A stretch of DNA of 64,000 bases from Candidatus Nitrosocosmicus oleophilus (GTDB taxonomy: Archaea; Thermoproteota; Nitrososphaeria; Nitrososphaerales; Nitrososphaeraceae): positions 1,736,001-1,800,000 of the forward strand of contig NZ_CP012850.1 in assembly GCF_000802205.1 (NCBI RefSeq). The letters are read 5' to 3'. This document shows, in pieces, positions 9,664 through 10,899 of this stretch. The notes below the pieces were generated by a model, which was not told the origin of the DNA, made no database searches, and worked only from the letters and a program-made list of their open reading frames with translations. Both the position numbers and the translations under genes were made by a program. Each line of letters opens with the position of its first letter. Position 1 is the stretch's first letter.

Positions 9664-10899
9664 CTATTTACTCGATTTAACCTTACTCTTGCGATACTTC
9701 AGATATACAACAACTATAATTATACCGAGAAAGATTGAAATACTAGGTACCAAGAAAGAGGGGTTTTGATCGCCACCTGGGATATCATTAGATTTAGAAA
9801 TACCAAACCCGGACTGATTTTGACTGGTCATGTTATTAAGTTCCGTACCGATGATTTTGATTACTCTAGCATCTTTTCCAAATTCTATTATTAATTTTCT
9901 AATATCATTATCTAAAGTATATTCTCCAGATGATGTATTGCTCCCTACACTGGGAGATGTTATATTTGAATTATTCTTGTCAATTATCTCCTGATATTTT
10001 GCTGGTTGGTTATTGACAAGTACTGTAAAGTTCTTATCTTCATCGTATATCCTCGAATCTATTATGTTTCGAGGCAGATCAATTGATAGTTCGCCATTTT
10101 CGTTATACGATATAATATCAAGAATTAAAGTCTTGATTTTTGAATTTGATTCTAATTGGAGATCATTTAGGCTTCCGCCTTTTAGCTGGACGCTTGTGTA
10201 ATGAATTTTATTATTAACTATTATGGGAATAATTTGTCGTAATATCTTGTCTAACCCGGACTGATTTTGACTGGTCATGTTATTAAGTTCCGTACCGATG
10301 ATTTTGATTACTCTAGCATCTTTTCCAAATTCTATTATTAATTTTCTAATATCATTATCTAAAGTATATTCTCCAGATGATGTATTGCTCCCTACACTGG
10401 GAGATGTTATATTTGAATTATTCTTGTCAATTATCTCCTGATATTTTGCTGGTTGGTTATTGACAAGTACTGTAAAGTTCTTATCTTCATCGTATATCCT
10501 CGAATCTATTATGTTTCGAGGCAGATCAATTTCTAGAATACCTGACTTGTTTTGACTTGGGGTCAATACAAGAATGATGGTCCTTTGATCATTATCATAA
10601 AGAATGTTATTAATTCTGTCTCCTGCATTAGAGATTGATAATGCATTCAAAATGCTACCAGTTTTGACCTGATAATAAATATAGTTCTTGAAAGATTGAT
10701 AACCATATTGATTTCCATTCATGATGTTTCCAAAGATTTGGTCATGATTGTTAGAAGTGCCAGTAGTAGTGTTATTTCCATTATTCACACTAGCCAATGC
10801 ATCTCCAAAATCAAAGTTAATTGAACTAAATATTCCTACTAATATTGACATCGTGAGTAGGCCTATTCCAATCAACACCGAACTTCCACACTTCCACAA
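9664..10899 (-). CDS. Membrane-anchored extracellular protein with internal duplication
   Basis: A 411-residue protein with an N-terminal hydrophobic segment (LIGIGLLTMSILVGIFSSI, signal peptide or anchor), a long Asn/Ser/Thr-rich outer part, and a C-terminal membrane helix (VPSISIFLGIIIVVVYLKY) followed by a basic tail. The topology is a surface protein held by its C-terminus. Two copies of a 93-residue unit (IDLPRNIIDSRIYDEDKNF to MTSQNQSG) are identical in protein and DNA. Each copy carries several N-x-S/T sites for N-glycosylation. No enzymatic domain is recognised; similar proteins with stalk-like repeats occur in thaumarchaeal envelopes. A structural or adhesive role is inferred. Confidence 0.7.
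   Translation of the reverse strand: MWKCGSSVLIGIGLLTMSILVGIFSSINFDFGDALASVNNGNNTTTGTSNNHDQIFGNIMNGNQYGYQSFKNYIYYQVKTGSILNALSISNAGDRINNILYDNDQRTIILVLTPSQNKSGILEIDLPRNIIDSRIYDEDKNFTVLVNNQPAKYQEIIDKNNSNITSPSVGSNTSSGEYTLDNDIRKLIIEFGKDARVIKIIGTELNNMTSQNQSGLDKILRQIIPIIVNNKIHYTSVQLKGGSLNDLQLESNSKIKTLILDIISYNENGELSIDLPRNIIDSRIYDEDKNFTVLVNNQPAKYQEIIDKNNSNITSPSVGSNTSSGEYTLDNDIRKLIIEFGKDARVIKIIGTELNNMTSQNQSGFGISKSNDIPGGDQNPSFLVPSISIFLGIIIVVVYLKYRKSKVKSSK
9806..10084. repeat. 279-bp perfect direct repeat, copy A
   Basis: Read base by base, this segment is identical to 10253-10531 with an offset of 447 bases. Identity stops sharply at both ends (different bases before AACCCGG and after CAGATCAATT). It encodes 93 residues of the surface protein in the same frame as copy B. 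Confidence 0.97.
10253..10531. repeat. 279-bp perfect direct repeat, copy B
   Basis: Second copy of the 279-bp unit in the surface-protein gene. The 168 bases between the copies encode a non-repeated linker. The 447-base period is a multiple of three, so gain or loss of a unit by recombination keeps the frame. Confidence 0.97.

Follow-up and report, generated by a model that had tools for sequence, protein, structure and literature searches.

The window, i.e., the whole stretch of 64,000 nucleotides (64 kb) that was analysed and which is part of a single contig of 3,430,706 nt, contains a gene with two copies of a 279-nt sequence that show 0 mismatches, and the question raised by this locus is how the two copies came to be, and to remain, identical. 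They occupy positions 9806-10084 and 10253-10531 of the minus strand with a period of 447 nt and, as already noticed in a first reading of the sequence, both are in frame within a single minus-strand open reading frame of 411 amino acids (9664-10899). A wider repeat pair, 9806-10089 and 10253-10536, extends over 284 nt with 99% identity. This pair is the only direct repeat of at least 40 nt occurring in the window, and an exact repeat of 279 nt lies far beyond what chance produces.

Organization of the gene and of its two domains

The reading frame, which comprises 411 codons plus the stop and opens with a TTG start, encodes a putative membrane-anchored two-domain surface protein. From the N-terminus, a predicted hydrophobic helix (residues 7-26; 10822-10881), probably acting as a signal for export or as an anchor, is followed by two domains, a second predicted hydrophobic helix (residues 383-404; 9688-9753), which is probably a membrane anchor, and a basic tail, all encoded on the minus strand. 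The first domain consists of a first half, A (10532-10683), and a second half, R1 (10253-10531); the linker and the first half of the second domain form M (10085-10252), and its second half is R2 (9806-10084), R1 and R2 being the two identical copies of 279 nt, collectively designated R. The protein architecture is that of tandem β-sandwich domains, A-R and M-R, which are probably exposed at the cell surface.

The sequence separating the two copies had been described as unrelated in the sequence-only reading. This description has to be abandoned, since A and M both match the same half-domain profile, built from other genera, which recognised 13 of the 18 halves at E ≤ 0.01 and, after shuffling, 9 out of 1800. 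Comparing the profiles of A and M directly with each other gave no significant match, and their homology therefore depends on the matches to the external profile. Judging by these sequence matches, A and M are long-diverged versions of one half-domain. The β-sandwich domain is widespread in the family to which Nitrosocosmicus belongs: both domains match a profile made from 21 domains of proteins from other genera of the family, many of these proteins ending in VPEFG. The named relatives matched with the protein itself come from two Candidatus Nitrosocosmicus metagenome genomes and from a further one labelled Nitrosopumilus.

The model of a single domain consists of a β-sandwich (pLDDT 81.5), in which R would start in the fifth strand and end with the last strand, and would include a serine- and asparagine-rich loop modelled with low confidence; the model of the full-length protein is poor (pLDDT 58.3). 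Scans of Pfam and NCBIfam with the window protein gave nothing over the curated cut-offs, and the weak Pfam matches obtained with 34 members of the domain were each common to at most four of them. Compared by sequence with solved structures, the protein gave a best E of 0.47, i.e., no convincing relative; a Foldseek search with the domain returned nothing at E ≤ 0.001, and the best VIA-align match (Z 7.5, rmsd 3.9, 94 aligned) falls within the range of common arrangements. No assignment to a fold family is claimed. A plasmid search gave no match.

With respect to its β-sandwich domain, the protein resembles the PEFG-CTERM surface proteins of Nitrososphaeria (NCBIfam TIGR04296). Membership of this group was considered and rejected on account of the C-terminus, whose helix has no PEFG-CTERM match, TIGR04296 giving no match to the window protein at E ≤ 0.1. 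In another genus, the syntenic locus L084, located beside rpoH, combines the domain with a PEFG-CTERM tail (32.7 bits versus a cut-off of 25) and, unlike the window protein, carries an MG2-like region (below the Pfam cut-off) in place of the second domain. The same locus (L084:451-1281, genome G026) also shows a weak match to the S-layer SlaB model (E 3.9e-08, 32.6 bits versus a cut-off of 700). In other genera of the family, a gene for the domain occurs next to rpoH in 6 of 17 loci, one of them partial, and each of the five complete genes has one domain copy. Taking these 17 loci together, the doubled form may be a feature of Nitrosocosmicus. In four proteins from outside the genus that carry two domains of this family, the longest exact tract measures 11 nt or less, so that the domain as such does not entail homogenisation.

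Identity of R within genomes and divergence between species

All 15 genomes compared within the genus, one per species, contain the gene or a fragment of it. Two units occur in nine genomes (G000, G001, G002, G003, G004, G008, G009, G010 and G013), a single unit occurs in four (G005, G007, G012 and G014), and the gene is cut in two others (G006 and G011) by contig ends located at or in R. When the limits of the R core are set by protein motifs instead of by identity itself, R1 and R2 differ at 0 positions in each of the nine two-unit genomes (2,250 nt in total, with about 473 synonymous sites), six of which are drafts whose assembly could mask minor differences between the copies. The exact tracts extend over 259-292 nt; in L011, one mismatch occurs past the core, at position 276 of a tract of 281, and in L012, whose threonine run is alike in both copies, the tract stops at a gap of N. 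Across the species, R measures about 260-290 nt and the spacing from R1 to R2 varies from 447 to 498 nt.

Between species, the core of R differs at 6-54% of its nucleotides, with dS values of 0.13-0.50 in the closer pairs and saturation in most others, and the R copies are more alike within a genome than between orthologues in all nine two-unit genomes. Purifying selection acting on the protein alone could be invoked to keep the copies alike, and R is indeed constrained, dN being lower than dS in close pairs, but such a selection cannot fix the synonymous sites, which saturate between species. The identity at these sites excludes selection at the protein level as the sole cause, and the probability that we leave to it is practically nil.

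The first halves of the domains behave differently. In the tree they separate into two clades of nine species each, one for A and one for M, which are reciprocally monophyletic with a support of 100/100, whereas the R copies are paired by species in nine cases out of nine. Since A and M form separate clades across nine species, the duplication predates these species, and since R is paired by species in spite of the old age of A and M, it must have been homogenised repeatedly after the duplication. The sequence-only reading had proposed a recent duplication or gene conversion; the separate clades of A and M, associated with the identity of R within species, speak in favour of conversion and against a recent duplication. 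Two long-diverged copies in the orthologues, which the same reading had considered as contrary to its proposal, are found for A and M and not for R. A recent tandem duplication of a one-unit gene, taking place independently in each lineage and leaving R young everywhere, would account for the identity of R within genomes and agrees with the existence of one-unit genes. Yet the orthologous M sequences, which form a single clade over nine species apart from A, are no fresh copies of A, and nine independent events would have to share almost identical edges, which makes this explanation extremely improbable.

With selection on the protein excluded and a fresh duplication disfavoured, recombination between the direct repeats remains, in the form of conversion, unequal exchange or template switching. 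Concerted evolution of R by recombination between the repeats of an old two-domain gene is very probably the explanation. Gene conversion is the molecular step that we infer as the simplest one, together with other recombination between the repeats; the pattern would look alike after unequal exchange or template switching. According to the proposed mechanism, in a pair of domains that predates the species sampled from the genus, A and M would have diverged out of the reach of homologous recombination, and R1 and R2 would be recopied so frequently that they stay identical and change jointly along each lineage. Selection for the retention of both A and M would presumably remove most of the deletion products of the A-R-C type, some of which may have been fixed in some lineages.

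The synonymous divergence between R1 and R2 is at most 0.63% (95% bound), from which homogenisation per site is estimated to exceed mutation by a factor of at least about 300, using an equilibrium 2u/c model and genomes that are not independent. For repeats near 300 nt, ordinary recombination could plausibly reach a 300-fold rate, so that no special machinery is needed. Three-unit genes number 0 among the 13 resolved genes, which counts against the explanation by concerted evolution because unequal exchange should produce some of them.

Number of units and edges of the homogenised tract

An alignment of the orthologues had been suggested to find out whether the number of units differs, and it does differ between species, with four one-unit genes among the 13 resolved, all four from draft genomes. 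The one-unit genes display an A-R-C layout, as deletion products should do, and are in frame in G005, G007 and G014. Four state changes are needed on the tree, so that a loss of units would be recurrent. A search for M gave no match in G005, G006, G007, G012 and G014, and weak matches only in G011 (E 0.31 and 0.69); as the drafts may have dropped short M contigs, a real loss and an assembly collapse both fit this result. A change of copy number between species seems plausible from the available sequences, bearing in mind that the count of units may be wrong in draft genomes. Each copy of R contains 3 to 7 N-X-S/T motifs, and losing one unit would therefore change the number of potential glycosylation sites, the use of which is putative.

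In G012 (L004, L017), a duplicate of about 64 nt is located at the end of R together with a frameshift, the C-terminal anchor being out of frame, which corresponds either to a real deletion scar or to a scaffolding error. The bases located directly after the first R of this genome resemble the start of M, a hint that M was formerly there or was lost in scaffolding.

The odd duplicate of G012, the ends of the G006 and G011 contigs and the length of R, which exceeds the word length of short reads, are all points in favour of an assembly artefact, by which one copy of R would have been duplicated, or two differing copies merged, by the assembler. Such an artefact, which the sequence-only reading had retained as a possible objection, is very improbable in view of the two units found in all three single-contig genomes of the genus and in nine genomes with separate assemblies, and of the orthologous M that sits between the R copies.

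A phase-variable switch, in which a population would use recombination between R1 and R2 to alternate between proteins with two domains and with one, appears quite unlikely. It could draw on the in-frame one-unit genes and on the 96-98% identity in A, R and C between the one-unit gene of G007 (L006) and the two-unit gene of G002 (L002), which differ in the number of units. However, a simple deletion of M is irreversible without a two-unit donor, the one-unit genes all originate from drafts in a comparison between species and not populations, and the three-unit form is missing from the resolved genes.

Concerning the borders of the homogenised tract, identity extends upstream past the first core codon by 4-16 nt at the left edge, and downstream past the last one by 1-40 nt at the right edge. 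Upstream of the left edge it drops to about 34%. The left edge is near-constant, within 4-16 nt of one codon, and in the close trio L001-L003 its extension amounts to 4 nt in all three. This steadiness exceeds what simple edge erosion predicts and counts against concerted evolution in its plain form: since simple conversion should erode the edges, either selection would hold the edge motifs or recombination would reach up to the border of heterology. A more elaborate reading, which is unlikely but deserves mention, would regard the R half-domain as coupled, accepted changes spreading by recombination to both domains at a time when A and M stay distinct, and the exposed face being doubled on the A and M scaffolds and evolving in step, with an edge near [DEQ][LI]PR set by selection and a coexistence of one-unit and two-unit cells.

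Comparison with known systems and with other repeats

Rib-type surface proteins show length variation and possess repeats that are identical at the DNA level. The window protein resembles these tandem-repeat surface proteins, as described in PMC6936399, by its repeated in-frame domains. It differs from them, whose whole units occur in many copies, and from the tandem-repeat phase-variable type in general, where whole units are identical and usually present in several copies, by the number of units, which is one or two in all 13 resolved genes, and by the restriction of identity to the second half of the unit.

Long-lasting concerted evolution of paralogues has been described for 26 prokaryotic genes, with gene conversion as the proposed cause, in a study that qualifies such cases as rare for whole genes and leaves partial cases for later (PMC6053082). 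Like these paralogues, the R copies are alike within species at both synonymous and non-synonymous sites and diverged between species, but the paralogues are separate whole genes, the authors stating that they considered full-length cases, whereas half a domain inside one gene is concerned here. Spider silk genes, as outlined in PMC3933166, similarly contain intragenic repeats homogenised in each species; unlike this animal fibre gene with its many repeats, the archaeal surface gene has two copies, each with a diverged half beside it. The process is known, and the case is unusual in dealing with half a domain, in two copies, on a genus-wide scale; it was not found in the searched open literature on gene conversion and on Nitrosocosmicus or Thaumarchaeota. 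The gene represents a clean archaeal natural experiment in concerted evolution, with a homogenised half beside an escaped half in one gene of nine species, which sets a bound on the ratio of homogenisation to mutation and permits asking why conversion ends at one place.

According to PMC11559005, the genus Nitrosocosmicus is devoid of a canonical S-layer and has a glycocalyx-like coat; a probable surface protein encoded in all 15 genomes of the genus would thus be a reasonable candidate component of this coat.

Exact direct repeats of at least 100 nt with a period of 100-2000 were also counted elsewhere. In G000, the genome to which the window belongs, a sample of 400 kb made up of twenty 20-kb stretches contains 8 ORFs with such repeats, 4 of the 8 being short tandem runs; samples of the same size (400 kb) contain 1 such ORF in G003 and 2 in G026. 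The frequency of exact intragenic repeats elsewhere in G000 makes the case of the window less surprising. A second pair of partial domains occurs in G026 (L143:14083-16425), with 153 identical nt at a period of 297 and first parts that differ; this half-domain repeat has no match in the 17 other genomes of its genus. In G000, a calcium-repeat-like surface protein (L061:4312) exhibits an exact direct repeat of 263 nt with a period of 237, and an exported-looking protein (L101:11211-12155) consists of two tandem domains of ~157 residues, in which exact identity is patchy (140 and 155 nt, period 471) and looks as if these domains had been partly converted.
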